Shown: positions 21,817 through 27,496 of the stretch, one piece after another
Position numbering within the stretch: position 1 is the first letter of the stretch
How the letters are laid out: every line of letters starts with the position of its first letter
Assembly (NCBI GenBank): GCA_019637155.1
Contig: JAHBWE010000013.1
Span: forward strand, 248,001-312,000
Direction: 5' to 3'
DNA from: Labilithrix sp.
Lineage (GTDB): Bacteria > Myxococcota_A > Polyangia > Polyangiales > Polyangiaceae
Length of the DNA stretch: 64,000 nucleotides
Made by a program: the position numbers and the translations under genes
Notes under the pieces: model-generated
Database searches by the model: none
Told to the model about the DNA's origin: nothing
Seen by the model: the letters and a program-made list of their open reading frames with translations, nothing else

Positions 21817-22320
21817 GTGCGCCGCCATCTCCTCCTCCTGATCCCCGTTTTCGTCGCCGGGTGCGCGGAGGACGAGGTCATGCGTCCCGCGGCCGCGCCG
21901 TCCTCGCCCGCGGTGTGGAGCAACACCGAAGCCGCGCCTGCGTTGCCCGAGCCGCCGCCGCCACCGCCGCGCCCGCGCCTCTCGCAGACGATCACGCTCG
22001 GGCAGGACGACTACTCGCCGCGTCCGCCGCCCGCGCCCGCGGCGCAGGGACAAGGAACGAGCAACAACGTGACGGTGAACAACAACATCGTCGTCCAGTC
22101 CCCGCCCGTGTTCTACGGCGGCGGCTTTGGTTACGGCTACGGCGGTTACGGCGCCGCGCGGAGCGGCGACGGACGCACGGGGGTCGGCGTCGCGCCGCGC
22201 ACGCCGTGGGCGCCGAGCGGCTGGGAGGGCGCGCAGCGAACGGCGGCCCCCGGGCAGACCCCGGGCGTGGGCGGCAACTGGGCGCCGCCGCCGAGCCATG
22301 GCCCCGCGCCCATGCGCTGA
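21817..22320 (+). CDS. Small lipoprotein with Pro-rich and Gly/Tyr-rich regions
   Basis: A 167-residue protein from GTG 21817, chosen because 'VRRHLLLLIPVFVAGC' forms a lipoprotein signal directly. A Pro-rich stretch follows, then an Asn-rich 'NNVTVNNNIVVQ' strand and a 'YGGGFGYGYGGYG' stretch. No enzyme motif is present; it is probably an envelope structural protein. It sits 4 bp after the permease in the same operon. Confidence 0.8.
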   Translation: MRRHLLLLIPVFVAGCAEDEVMRPAAAPSSPAVWSNTEAAPALPEPPPPPPRPRLSQTITLGQDDYSPRPPPAPAAQGQGTSNNVTVNNNIVVQSPPVFYGGGFGYGYGGYGAARSGDGRTGVGVAPRTPWAPSGWEGAQRTAAPGQTPGVGGNWAPPPSHGPAPMR

Positions 22321-22329
22321 GTCGTGACG

Positions 22330-22800
22330 ATGGCCACGGTCGGCGTCGACTTCTTCCGCGTGGATCGCTCCGGCACGACACGTCGCCTCCTCATCGTCGC
22401 GGGCGGGCTCGTCACCGCCGGCGCGACCACGATCGGCGCGCACCTCGTCAGCAACTTCGGCGAGGGCGTCGCGCGCGCTCTGTCGCTCCTCGGTGGGGGC
22501 GTCACGATCGCGGGGCTCGTCCTCGGCTTCGGCGCGATGGCGATGCTCCTCTTCGAGAACGTCTACCTCCTCATCAAGGAGGAGGGGCTCCTCTTCCACG
22601 ACAACGGGAAGGAGACGACCGTGCCGTGGCCCGACCTCGAGGAGGCCGCGCTCGAGGCCGACAGCGGCTTCGTCGTGTTCAAGCGCAAGGAGGGCTCGCC
22701 GCTCCGGTGGTTCGCCGGCGCGGCGGCGAAGAACCTCCAGACCCGCGTCGAGGACGCGAAGCGGAAGGCGTTGCATGGCCTCCTCAAGATGGAGCATTGA
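22330..22800 (+). CDS. Two-pass membrane protein with PH-like cytosolic domain
   Basis: The 156-residue protein has membrane segments at about 20-42 and 52-78. A domain of about 75 residues follows ('LLIKEEGLLFHDNGKETTVPWPDLEEAAL'), which resembles bacterial PH-like (DUF304-type) domains. A GTG two codons upstream (22324) is an alternative start. Function is unknown. It is part of the operon from 20466 to 23580. Confidence 0.75.
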   Translation: MATVGVDFFRVDRSGTTRRLLIVAGGLVTAGATTIGAHLVSNFGEGVARALSLLGGGVTIAGLVLGFGAMAMLLFENVYLLIKEEGLLFHDNGKETTVPWPDLEEAALEADSGFVVFKRKEGSPLRWFAGAAAKNLQTRVEDAKRKALHGLLKMEH

Positions 22801-22803
22801 AGG

Positions 22804-23580
22804 ATGGTGAATCGTCCGGAGAAGCCGTTCGCCGGCGTCGGACTGAAGGCCGCGGCGAAGATGCTCGCGGGCCACGCCGCGCCCGAGCTCGACGTCGACT
22901 GGCTCGGTATCGACGAAAACGGCGCGATCGCAGTTTTTCTCGGAGGTGACGAAACGCCGGTGCCGAGCGGCGCCGATCCCGACGCGACGTCGGCCGCGCT
23001 CGAGCGCATCGCGGAGTCGATGCGGCGCCGGCTCGCGACCGAGGCGCGCTCCGAGCTCGCGTACCGCGCCGCCGCGTCGCGCGCGGGCGAGCCGGTCTTC
23101 GACGTGCCCACCGCGTCGTTCGGGGACCCGTCCTACGCGAACGGCCGCGGCCCGCTCCACGAGCCGCCGGCGCGCGGCTATCCGCACCTCGTCTTCGCGT
23201 GGCCCGGCGCCGAGACCACGCTCCGCGCGTTCTTCGACGGAGCCTCGGAGGTGCTCACGCGCGGGGACCACTTCGCGGTGCGGGTCGATTCGATGCGGCG
23301 CGAGGACGCCGAGGAGCTCCACCGCGACGGGACGTGCGCGGGCTGTCGCGTGGTCGACGATCCGAACGATCCGCGCTCGCGCTCGGCGCACGCGCTCGCG
23401 TCGGCCGGGCTCTACGTCTACGGCTGGACGCCGGAGGCGTGGGTCCGCGTCGCGAGCCCGAGCGTCCCCGCCGATCGCGGCGACCTCCAGGACGTGGGCG
23501 GCGGAAAGCTCCTCGCGCTGCCGCACCGCTTCGAGTCGAGCGCGTGGCTGCCGCACGATCCTCAGAAGTCGATCCGATAG
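22804..23580 (+). CDS. Hypothetical protein
   Basis: A 258-residue soluble protein preceded by AAGG and starting 4 bp after the previous stop. It contains a Cys-x-x-Cys 'DGTCAGCRVVDDPNDP' and an aromatic C-terminal half. I do not recognise the family. Its 3' end overlaps the opposite-strand phosphoesterase by 19 bp. Confidence 0.75.
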   Translation: MVNRPEKPFAGVGLKAAAKMLAGHAAPELDVDWLGIDENGAIAVFLGGDETPVPSGADPDATSAALERIAESMRRRLATEARSELAYRAAASRAGEPVFDVPTASFGDPSYANGRGPLHEPPARGYPHLVFAWPGAETTLRAFFDGASEVLTRGDHFAVRVDSMRREDAEELHRDGTCAGCRVVDDPNDPRSRSAHALASAGLYVYGWTPEAWVRVASPSVPADRGDLQDVGGGKLLALPHRFESSAWLPHDPQKSIR

Positions 23581-24362
23581 CGCGCGGGATCGTTGCCGCC
23601 GACGCGGATGACGGCGCGCCGGTCGTCGATGTCCATCACGCCGTAGGCGGCGGCGGGGCGGCCGGGCGCGTCGGCGTCGAGGTTCTCGATCAGGCTCTGG
23701 ATCGTCACGTACGGGATGCCGTGGATCACGTCGAGGTGGTTGCGGTGCACGTGCCCGTTCACGACGACGCGGACCTTGCCGCTCTCCTCCAGGATCGCGC
23801 GGAGCTCGGCGCGCTCCTTCACCAGCGCGAGGTGGGGCAGGTCGTGGAACCAGAACGAGTCGTCGAGGTCCTGCTCGCTCGCGGAGTGGTGCATCAGCAC
23901 GATGACGGGCAGGTCCGTCGCGGCGAGGTCGCGCGCGAGCCACTCGAGCTGCGCGCGCGGGATGCGCACGTCGACCTCCTTCCGTTCGATCGTGTGGAGG
24001 ACGGCGAGGTGAAAGCCGCCGCGATCGATCGCGTAGTGGAGGTTCCCGTCATGGTCCCACGCCGCGGTGACGTCCTCGCGCGTGAGGTGGACCGTGTCGT
24101 GGTTGCCGGCGACGTTCACGACCTCGGCCTTCGCTTCGCGGAGGATCGACTGGCACTCGAGGTAGCGCACGAGGTCGGCGGCGGGCGACTCGTCCTCGAC
24201 GTCGTCGCCGAGGTTCACGAGCAGATCGGGGCGGATCTCGTCGTTCATCCGCCGGACGACGTCGCGGAGGAGCGTCGTCGCGTGCTCGGTGAGCTTCCGG
24301 AGCTTGCCTTCGTGATACGCCGCCGGCCCGATGTGGATGTCGGTCACGAAGCCAATCTTCAC
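23562..24362 (-). CDS. Calcineurin-like metallophosphoesterase
   Basis: The 266-residue enzyme has the full two-metal set: Asp8-x-His10 (TDIH), GDD 52-54, GNHD 86-89, 'VLMHHS' and 'GHVH'. It would hydrolyse a phosphomono- or phosphodiester, and the layout is like the cAMP/glycerophosphodiester phosphodiesterase group. The GTG 24362 start is chosen because upstream frame sequence is non-homologous and a TACCAT box lies 6 bases before it. It is divergent, by 22 bp, from a cytidylyltransferase and transporter operon, which suggests a shared pathway. Confidence 0.92.
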   Translation of the reverse strand: MKIGFVTDIHIGPAAYHEGKLRKLTEHATTLLRDVVRRMNDEIRPDLLVNLGDDVEDESPAADLVRYLECQSILREAKAEVVNVAGNHDTVHLTREDVTAAWDHDGNLHYAIDRGGFHLAVLHTIERKEVDVRIPRAQLEWLARDLAATDLPVIVLMHHSASEQDLDDSFWFHDLPHLALVKERAELRAILEESGKVRVVVNGHVHRNHLDVIHGIPYVTIQSLIENLDADAPGRPAAAYGVMDIDDRRAVIRVGGNDPARYRIDF

Positions 24363-24368
24363 GGCCGC

Positions 24369-24378
24369 ATGGTAGCGT
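24369..24378. promoter_or_regulatory. Overlapping divergent -10 boxes
   Basis: ATGGTAGCGT holds TACCAT for the minus strand (24374 to 24369), 6 bases before GTG 24362. It also holds the extended TGGTAGCGT for the plus strand, 6 bases before ATG 24385. The two hexamers share 2 bp. Both genes would be leaderless, and RNA polymerase could not occupy both at once. Confidence 0.5.
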
Positions 24379-24384
24379 GCCCCC

Positions 24385-25140
24385 ATGCGTCCCGTCCTCA
24401 TCGGAGCCGGTAGGGGCAGCCGGCTCGAGCACCGCACCGAGGAGATCCCGAAGACCCTCGTGCCCGTCATGGGCCGCCCGATGCTGGAGTGGATCCTCGA
24501 GGCGCTCGCGGAGGCGGGCTTCACGAAGAAGGACGTCGTCTACGTCTGCGGCTACAAGAAGGAGGTCCTCCAGGCGCGCTACCCCGAGTTCACCTACGTC
24601 GTGAACGAGGACTGGGCCCACAACAACATCCTCGAGTCGCTCGTCTGCGCGCGTGACCACCTCGGGAGCGGCTTCGTCTCGTCGTACACGGACATCGTCT
24701 ACCGCGGCTCGTGCGTGAAGGACGTCGTCGCCGCGCCGCACGAGAAGGTGCTCGTCTCCGACACCGACTGGCGCCGCCGCTACGTGAACCGCAAGAACCA
24801 CCCCGAGAGCGACGCGGAGAAGCTGCGCGCGGAGGGCGATCGCGTCGTCGAGCTGTCGCGCACGATCGCGAGCGAGCGCGCGTCCGGCGAGTTCATCGGC
24901 GTCGCGAAGCTCGGCCCACACGGCGCGAAGGAGTTCCTCGAGGCCTACGAAGAGGCGAAGAAGACCGAGACGACGCTCGGCGATCGCCCCTTCAAGAAGG
25001 CGTACCTCATCCACATGTGGCAGTGGATGATCGAGCGCGGCTCGGTGTTCCACAAAGTCGACACCCCGGGCGGCTACATGGAGCTCGACACGCTCGAGGA
25101 CCTCTCGATGGCCGAGACCTGGTGGAACGGCGGCCAATGA
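24385..25140 (+). CDS. LicC-like sugar/phosphocholine nucleotidyltransferase
   Basis: The 251-residue protein has an N-terminal nucleotide-binding loop (GAGRGSRL, residues 7-14) and Lys23 in 'IPKTLVPVMG'. A metal Asp occurs in 'SSYTDIVYRG', and 'DTDWRRRYVNRKNHPESDAE' is characteristic of the LicC/aminoethylphosphonate cytidylyltransferase branch rather than of sugar pyrophosphorylases. It likely makes a CDP- or NDP-activated head group. Its stop overlaps the next gene (ATGA), so it is the first gene of an operon with an ABC importer. Confidence 0.85.
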   Translation: MRPVLIGAGRGSRLEHRTEEIPKTLVPVMGRPMLEWILEALAEAGFTKKDVVYVCGYKKEVLQARYPEFTYVVNEDWAHNNILESLVCARDHLGSGFVSSYTDIVYRGSCVKDVVAAPHEKVLVSDTDWRRRYVNRKNHPESDAEKLRAEGDRVVELSRTIASERASGEFIGVAKLGPHGAKEFLEAYEEAKKTETTLGDRPFKKAYLIHMWQWMIERGSVFHKVDTPGGYMELDTLEDLSMAETWWNGGQ

Positions 25141-26210
25141 ACGCGGCGACGAGCGAGATCGAGGTCGAGCTCGCCGGGGTCACGAAGAGGTTCGAGGAGG
25201 GCGGGGGCCTCACGCTGCGCGGCATCGACCTCGCGGTGAAGAAGGGCGAGCTCCTCGTCGTCGTCGGGCCGTCGGGCTGCGGCAAGTCGACGATGCTCCG
25301 GATCATCGCCGGCCTCGAGGAGGCGAGCGGCGGCGACGTTCGCATCGGCGGCAAGTCGATGACGCGGGTCGCGCCGCAGGACCGCGACGTCGCGATGGTG
25401 TTCCAGGGCTACGCGCTCTACCCGCAGATGACGGTGCGCGAGAACATCGAGTTCCCGCTCAAGATGCGGAGGGTCGATCCCGCGGAGCGGAAGAAGCGGA
25501 GCGACGAGGCCGCCGCGCTCCTCGAGCTCGGTCGCTTGATGGACCGCCTGCCCGCGGAGCTCTCCGGCGGCGAGCGTCAGCGCGTCGCGATGGGCCGCGC
25601 GATCGTGCGGCGGCCGCGCGTCTTCCTCTTCGACGAGCCGCTCTCGAACCTCGACGCCGCGCTGCGCCAGGAGCTGCGCGTGCAGATCGGCGTCCTCGTG
25701 CGCGAGCTCGGCGTCACCGCGATCTACGTCACCCACGACCAGGTCGAAGCGATGACGCTCGCCGATCGGATCTGCCTCATGAAGAAGGGCGAGATCCAGC
25801 AGGTCGCGGCGCCGCGCGCGATCTACGAGGAGCCCGCCAACAGCTTCGTCGGCACGTTCATCGGCGCGCCGAAGATGAACCTGCTCCCGGGCGTCGCGGC
25901 GGACGGCGCGATCACGTGCGGTCCCTTCACGCTGTCCGCGCCCGCGGGCGTGGAGCTCCCGGCGAAGGTCGTCGTCGGCGTGCGCCCCGAGGACGTGAAG
26001 GTCGTCGACGCCGGCGCCGCGCTCGAGGTCGTGATCGCGGAGCCGCTCGGCGCGGAGACGAACCTCGTCTTGAAGGCGGGCGACCTCACGCTCCGCGCGC
26101 GCACGCACGGCTTCGACCCGCGCCCGCCGGGCTCGGCGATCCACGTCTCGCTCGACGCCGCGCGCTTCCACGTGTTCGACGCCGGCGATCGTGGGGAGCG
26201 CCTCGCGTGA
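25137..26210 (+). CDS. ABC importer ATPase, UgpC/MalK type
   Basis: The 357-residue ATPase has Walker A GPSGCGKST at 44-52, LSGGE at 142-146, Walker B VFLFDE at 162-167 and 'THDQVEAMTLADRI'. The C-terminal TOBE region (about 240-350) is that of carbohydrate (CUT1) importers. It overlaps both neighbours by 4 bp. It should energise the permeases at 35453-37119, which lack an ATPase of their own nearby. Confidence 0.95.
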   Translation: MNAATSEIEVELAGVTKRFEEGGGLTLRGIDLAVKKGELLVVVGPSGCGKSTMLRIIAGLEEASGGDVRIGGKSMTRVAPQDRDVAMVFQGYALYPQMTVRENIEFPLKMRRVDPAERKKRSDEAAALLELGRLMDRLPAELSGGERQRVAMGRAIVRRPRVFLFDEPLSNLDAALRQELRVQIGVLVRELGVTAIYVTHDQVEAMTLADRICLMKKGEIQQVAAPRAIYEEPANSFVGTFIGAPKMNLLPGVAADGAITCGPFTLSAPAGVELPAKVVVGVRPEDVKVVDAGAALEVVIAEPLGAETNLVLKAGDLTLRARTHGFDPRPPGSAIHVSLDAARFHVFDAGDRGERLA

Positions 26211-27496
26211 GCGCGCTCGCCAGGACGCGCACGGAGCACCGAGCGCTCTCGCGCCGCGCGTTCGTCGGCGGAGCGGCCGCGTCGCTGGTGGGGTGCCGGC
26301 GATCGACGAAGGACGCGCAGGGGCGGACGCGGCTCCGGTTCTGGTACGCGCTCGGCGGGAAGAGCCGCGAGACGCTGCTCGAGATCGTGCGGCGCTTCCA
26401 CGCGGTGCAGGACGACGTGCGGGTCGAGGCCGTGCATCAGGGCGACTACTTCGAGTCGCTCGCGAAGCTCCGCACGGCGGTCGCGGCGAGGGCGGCGCCC
26501 GCGCTCGCGCACGTCGTCGCGGAGGTCGTGCCGTACCTCGTCCGCGCGAACGCGCTCGAGGCGCTCGACGGGTATCCCGGGATGAAGGAGATCGACTTCG
26601 TCCCCGCGCTCGGGCAGGCGGGGGCGTTCCGCGGCGGAGGCGAGCAGCCGCTCTACGGCGTGCCGCTCAACCGCTCGACGCCGCTCATGTACTGCAACGG
26701 CCGGCTCTTCGAGGCGGCCGGCTTCTCGCCGCCCGCGACGTGGGCGGAGCTCCGCGAGTGCGCGCGGGCGCTCACGAAGCCGAACGGGGAGCGCTGGGGT
26801 CACGAGGTCCCGATCTCGTGGTGGTTCTGGGTCGCGCTCGTGGGGCAGGCGGGCGGCGCGGTGTTCGACGCGGAGGGACGGCCCACGCTCGGCGGCGACG
26901 AGGGCGTGAAGGCGCTCCGCTTCTGGCAGGACCTCATCCACCGCGATCGCGTGATGCGGCCGCCGCCCGGGCGCGACTACGACGCGTGGAACGTCGTGAA
27001 CCAGGACTTTCTCGGCGAGCGCGCGGCCTGCATCTGGACGTCGACGGCGTACATCCGTTACCTCGAGACCAACGCGCGCTTCCCCGTCGTCGCGGCGCCG
27101 CTGCCGCGCGACGTGCGCGCGTCGGTCCCGACCGGCGGCACCTTCTTCGTCGTCGTGAAGGACGCGCCCGAAGAAGAGAAGGCCGCGGCCGCGCGCTTCC
27201 TGAAATTCGTGTGCGAGCCCGAGCAGGCCGCGTTCCTCTCCGCGCGCACGGGGTATCTCCCGATCACGGAGGGCGCGACGGCGAAGATGCGGGCGGACGG
27301 GTTCTTCACGCAGCACCCGAACGACGAGGTCGCGCAGCGGCAGCTCCCGAGCGTCGACCCGTGGCCGTGGGAGCCGATGCTGTTCCGCATCGAGCGCGAC
27401 ATCGTCGACCCGCGCCTCGAGGAGTCGGTCCTCCTCGATCGCGACCCCGCGGCGGTGCTCGCGCAGGCCCGCGCGCTCGCGCTCCGGCCAGGCTGA
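26207..27496 (+). CDS. Extracellular solute-binding lipoprotein (CUT1/UgpB-like), Tat-type signal
   Basis: The 429-residue binding protein has SRRAF, a twin-arginine motif, and lipobox SLVGC (Cys near residue 30). Folded export through Tat and lipid anchoring are therefore likely. The body shows family-1 binding-protein features ('LRFWYALGGKSRETLLEIVRRF', 'GVPLNRSTPLMYCNGRLFEAAG'). The nearest relatives by eye are UgpB-like proteins, and the ligand is unproven. It overlaps the ATPase by GTGA. Confidence 0.93.
   Translation: MSALARTRTEHRALSRRAFVGGAAASLVGCRRSTKDAQGRTRLRFWYALGGKSRETLLEIVRRFHAVQDDVRVEAVHQGDYFESLAKLRTAVAARAAPALAHVVAEVVPYLVRANALEALDGYPGMKEIDFVPALGQAGAFRGGGEQPLYGVPLNRSTPLMYCNGRLFEAAGFSPPATWAELRECARALTKPNGERWGHEVPISWWFWVALVGQAGGAVFDAEGRPTLGGDEGVKALRFWQDLIHRDRVMRPPPGRDYDAWNVVNQDFLGERAACIWTSTAYIRYLETNARFPVVAAPLPRDVRASVPTGGTFFVVVKDAPEEEKAAAARFLKFVCEPEQAAFLSARTGYLPITEGATAKMRADGFFTQHPNDEVAQRQLPSVDPWPWEPMLFRIERDIVDPRLEESVLLDRDPAAVLAQARALALRPG

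Follow-up and report, generated by a model that had tools for sequence, protein, structure and literature searches.

Genes flanking the 22-bp gap

The window analysed here is a stretch of 64,000 nucleotides from a Labilithrix sp. contig, in which two genes diverge from a very short gap. The first, on the minus strand, encodes a metallophosphoesterase of 266 aa (23562–24362) and starts with a GTG at 24362–24360 (protein N-terminus VKIGFVTDIH). The second, on the plus strand, encodes a LicC-like nucleotidyltransferase of 251 aa (24385–25140) and starts with an ATG at 24385 (N-terminus MRPVLIGAGRG). Only 22 bp (24363–24384) separate the two start codons and contain the entire visible promoter core for both genes. 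The initial annotation of this site (24360–24387) gave the correct interval and distance, and its naming of the two products agrees with the matches described below.

The metallophosphoesterase matches Pfam Metallophos (E 3e-13), an SpdA-type model (E 3e-15, well below that model's cut-off) and Rv0805 in the PDB (E 9e-6), which point to a calcineurin-like phosphoesterase that is nearest, though weakly, to the class III cyclic-nucleotide phosphodiesterases (SpdA, Rv0805). The LicC-like protein matches Pfam NTP_transf_3 (E 2e-12), and its closest solved structure is the CTP:phosphocholine cytidylyltransferase 1jyk (E 7e-10, residues 2–122), with weak similarity also to sugar-1-phosphate nucleotidylyltransferases. 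It appears nearest to LicC, a CTP:phosphocholine cytidylyltransferase, and its specificity for phosphocholine and CTP is putative. The stop codon of licC overlaps, as ATGA (25137–25140), the ATG of a gene for a UgpC/MalK-type ABC transporter ATPase on the same strand (25137–26210, plus strand; NCBIfam UgpC model, E 1e-121). Because of this overlap, the two genes probably form one operon. In each of the 12 genomes that keep the divergent pair, licC likewise has an ABC ATPase match downstream, and together with the ATGA overlap this hints that licC is connected with an uptake function.

Back-to-back −10 boxes and predicted leaderless starts

The centre of the gap carries ATGGTAGCGT (24369–24378), which has the form ANNNTANNNT, that is, two TANNNT hexamers placed back to back, one per strand. 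The metallophosphoesterase −10 box, TACCAT, reads from 24374 to 24369 on the minus strand, while the licC −10 box, TAGCGT, reads from 24373 to 24378 on the plus strand; both are identified from the sequence and from orthologues. As had been pointed out for these hexamers, they overlap by 2 bp, and the common bases are a palindromic TA (24373–24374) that forms positions −12 and −11 of each box, so that the −10 elements on opposite strands overlap reciprocally. The licC box is preceded by TGG, resembling the TGN of an extended −10, whereas the metallophosphoesterase box is without such an extension.

The key point missed earlier is the spacing. Both hexamers end exactly 6 nt before the start codon, so that their first T falls at −12, and no Shine-Dalgarno (SD) site precedes either gene. 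This is the signature of TANNNT-type leaderless genes, in which the hexamer begins some 12 bp ahead of the start codon and an SD is lacking. With a −10 box 6 nt before the start codon, transcription is predicted to start at the start codon itself, namely at the first base of the GTG (24362, minus strand) and at the first base of the ATG (24385, plus strand). A sigma-70 consensus scan of positions 22000–27000 found no full promoter, no −35 box is recognisable on either side, and no regulator site was found at the shared promoter.

We propose that, in this Labilithrix-like myxobacterium, the gap works as a bidirectional promoter of leaderless genes and belongs to the known 23-bp class. We hold this with good confidence, with the transcription starts and the leaderless translation as predictions from the sequence. 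RNA polymerase would load in either orientation on the common −10 region. The 5′ end of each transcript would coincide with, or lie beside, the initial base of the start codon, which places the two starts 23 bp apart. The products would be leaderless mRNAs, for the metallophosphoesterase one way and for the licC–ABC transporter operon the other way. The −35 region of each promoter would fall within the coding region of the gene on the other side. Because no −35 is recognisable there, polymerase would probably be held by the −10 box alone (plus the TGN for licC) or by an activator. The self-complementarity of TA most likely accounts for the layout: given one −10 box, the other would be completed by a single A four bases upstream. 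The layout is seen directly at this locus, is conserved in relatives and recurs elsewhere in the genome, as described in the following sections.

Conservation of the promoter core among relatives

Twelve genomes retain the divergent pair, namely the own genome, nine of the same genus (L002–L010), one of the family (L011) and a further named assembly (L037). Phosphoesterase orthologues carry a TANNNT 6–10 nt before the start in all 12 (TACCAT, TAGGAT, TACAAT, TACGGT, TACACT and TATCAT are found), including five genomes (L006–L010) in which the same two genes have separate promoters. For the licC partners, a TA box lies 6–11 nt before the start in 10 of the 12, the exceptions being L005, with the TA box 15 nt away, and L010, which has an SD site instead. 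Across the family, 28 of 35 licC orthologues have a TA box 6–12 nt upstream of the start, mostly without an SD; in relatives this box often lacks the final T (for example, TAGAAC and TAGGCG).

The distance between the two start codons is 23–36 bp in the genomes with the shared TA and 36–130 bp in those with separate promoters. Thus, conservation of the 22-bp gap, which the initial annotation had suggested as a check, is not found in these 12 genomes. However, the 13-mer around the shared TA, CATGGTAGCKTGC, shows a single substitution among L001–L005, although its flanks have gained or lost bases and, of the 93 fourfold-degenerate sites in licC, no more than 40 are identical in all five. This comparison suggests that the promoter core is probably under selection and that the 22-bp length of the gap is not. 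Wider spacings are seen in L002, L004 and L005, where the box is 8–10 nt from the phosphoesterase start and 9, 9 and 15 nt, respectively, from that of licC; in these three genomes the transcripts may carry short leaders. The best gene tree, in which many forks are weak, requires two or more changes of the shared TA.

SD-like sites among the relatives are seen for licC of L010, L014, L021 and L027 and for the phosphoesterase of L037. In L010 (1400–1501) the licC TA box has been lost and a GGAGGA Shine-Dalgarno precedes the ATG, an apparent change from a leaderless to an SD-led start. In L011 (1031–1054, licC on the plus strand) the core CTATGATACTCG offers both an 18-bp form (TATGATA) and a 23-bp form (ATGATACTCG), and the two lie around one TA.

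Leaderless-like starts across the genome

The genome-wide analysis covers 2.8 Mb of the 10.1 Mb of one genome, with 2241 genes called by codon usage and gene starts taken from a simple, home-made ORF caller. TANNNT precedes 73, 69, 64 and 69 of 2460 near-start ATGs at spacers 6, 7, 8 and 9, respectively, against 2–8 occurrences per spacer at spacers 0–5 (n = 2460) and 0–3 of 7281 internal ATGs at spacers 6–9. GTG starts show the same spacer behaviour. At a spacing of exactly 6 nt, the hexamer is found before 73/2460 near-start ATGs and 66/2611 near-start GTGs, and before internal codons it is so rare (ATG 2/7281, GTG 5/12351) that a chance origin of one box on each side of the gap is very unlikely.

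In total, 418 starts with the leaderless signature are present in the 2.8 Mb. In a smaller sample, 206 of 957 genes (about a fifth) have a TANNNT start at spacer 5–9, of which 16 also have an SD-like site. The spacer peak of TANNNT and the paucity of SD sites at these starts therefore indicate that leaderless or nearly leaderless promoters are common in this genome. TANNNT leaderless genes have been reported earlier in 8 of 33 delta-proteobacterial genomes, at an average of 15.8% (PMC3160421). The base immediately after the TANNNT of leaderless starts in the 2.8 Mb is A in only about 5%.

The lack of any promoter in the sigma-70 consensus scan might be taken to mean that the motif is fortuitous and that both genes are transcribed from promoters farther away, inside the opposite coding regions. 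However, the strong positional signal across the genome and the conservation of the core at the locus make this highly improbable.

Recurrence of the shared-TA layout

In the 2.8 Mb, 410 gene pairs are divergent, and in 51 of them each gene has a leaderless-like box. In 11 of these 51 the hexamers lie at an offset of +4, the arrangement with the shared TA, and every other offset is found at most 3 times. Symmetry explains much of this excess, as a box that already supplies the TA leaves just one A to be added for its counterpart. Where a plus-strand leaderless gene faces a start codon at a fitting distance, that A (at −4) is present in 10 of 15 cases against an expectation of 13–18% (binomial P 2e-6 to 6e-5), indicating that second boxes are in use more often than expected by chance.

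These numbers bear on whether both boxes at our locus are real. It could be argued that one of them functions alone, most likely the TGGTAGCGT of licC with its extended −10, and that the other gene has its promoter elsewhere, the mirrored box having come about by chance through the TA palindrome. Such a box would cost one extra A, expected by chance in 13–18%, and the phosphoesterase hexamer is indeed without a TGN extension. However, the phosphoesterase keeps its TANNNT close to the start in every one of the 12 orthologues, even in the five where the promoters are separate, and A at −4 is in genome-wide excess where the geometry fits. A single functional box is therefore unlikely, and use of both boxes remains our preferred reading.

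Raw overlaps in divergent gaps number 21 at offset −1 and 32 at offset +4, with at most 3 at any other. We did not count this excess in favour of selection, since two motifs that overlap have two fixed bases fewer to satisfy. Offset −1 corresponds to the 18-bp TANNNTA form, found 21 times in divergent gaps and yet not once among the doubly leaderless pairs, as compared with 11 of the 23-bp form. Since an A comes next to the −10 box in so few of the leaderless starts (about 5%), we infer that avoidance of A at this position would disfavour TANNNTA.

Most genes at the shared-TA promoters match Pfam families, with no common theme; the layout is also present at amidohydrolase/amidohydrolase, AraC/glyoxalase and PALP/thioesterase pairs. 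A search of the whole genome for the exact 11-mer ATGGTAGCGTG gives just two sites, both within a shared-TA divergent promoter. The second copy, at C1:253298 (C1:253287–253314), lies between genes for a glycosyltransferase and a UDP-GlcNAc 2-epimerase. The bare 28-bp pattern has 4 distinct sites in the own genome against 1 for a reversed-pattern control. Across 58 related genomes an AT-centred control is just as common as the bare pattern, which was consequently dropped as a powerless test.

It is tempting to speculate, and nearly as probable as the contrary, that the shared-TA 23-bp promoter is a standing architecture of close divergent leaderless genes in this lineage, in which about 22–27 bp would serve as the complete core for two leaderless mRNAs and the 18-bp form would be excluded by the avoidance of A after the −10 box.

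Does the shared promoter act as a switch?

The initial annotation proposed that occupancy by polymerase is mutually exclusive and forms a built-in switch between two genes that may act on the same type of compound. The first part stands: the geometry of the overlapping boxes suggests that two polymerases could not sit there together, and steric exclusion at bidirectional promoters is stated in PMC12825309. Such exclusion could in principle lead to anticorrelated expression of the two genes, and in E. coli strong activation one way does repress the other way (PMC12825309). However, the five E. coli bidirectional promoters tested were too weak at baseline to compete, and competition arose only when one direction was strongly activated (PMC12825309). 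The promoter described here is probably weak as well, because −35 boxes are lacking, and at ordinary strength we would expect the two genes not to be coupled. Moreover, 5 of the 12 genomes drive the same pair from separate promoters, and the layout also serves unrelated gene pairs.

The idea of a common compound fares no better. The nearest matches are cyclic-nucleotide phosphodiesterases on one side and LicC on the other, licC is without an adjoining phosphoesterase in most of the family, and the profile and structure matches revealed no functional or substrate link between the two genes. A regulatory switch conserved at the licC/phosphoesterase promoter is therefore unlikely, and the claim is not upheld.

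Relation to known promoter classes

Bidirectional and leaderless promoters are both already known, and the locus is a new example in which they appear to coincide. Like other bacterial bidirectional promoters, it has −10 elements that overlap on opposite strands in a pseudo-symmetrical manner. Its predicted start-to-start distance of 23 bp is among the common spacings (18 bp is the commonest, with 10 and 23 bp also common; PMC12825309) and falls within the 7–25 bp by which the class is defined in PMC10268837, citing Warman et al. 2021. Unlike the usual members of this class, both products are predicted to be leaderless and each −35 region would lie inside the opposite gene. The 18-bp TANNNTA arrangement that prevails in most bacteria is not seen among the doubly leaderless pairs here.

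The locus equally resembles the TANNNT leaderless genes of high-GC genomes (PMC3160421), with the first T 12 bp before the start on both sides and no SD. However, here two such genes share one box region. The '−10 region adjacent to ORF' expression of Deinococcus-Thermus (PMC12340547) is similar in that the −10 region abuts the coding sequence. It belongs to another phylum and, as far as the accessible part of that report goes, operates in a single direction.

In the literature on this phylum, we found no start-site study combining bidirectional −10 symmetry with leaderless mRNAs. The locus is a clean and compact coincidence of these two known phenomena. It also suggests an aid for annotation: divergent start codons 23–28 bp apart around ANNNTANNNT could be called with more confidence in such genomes.
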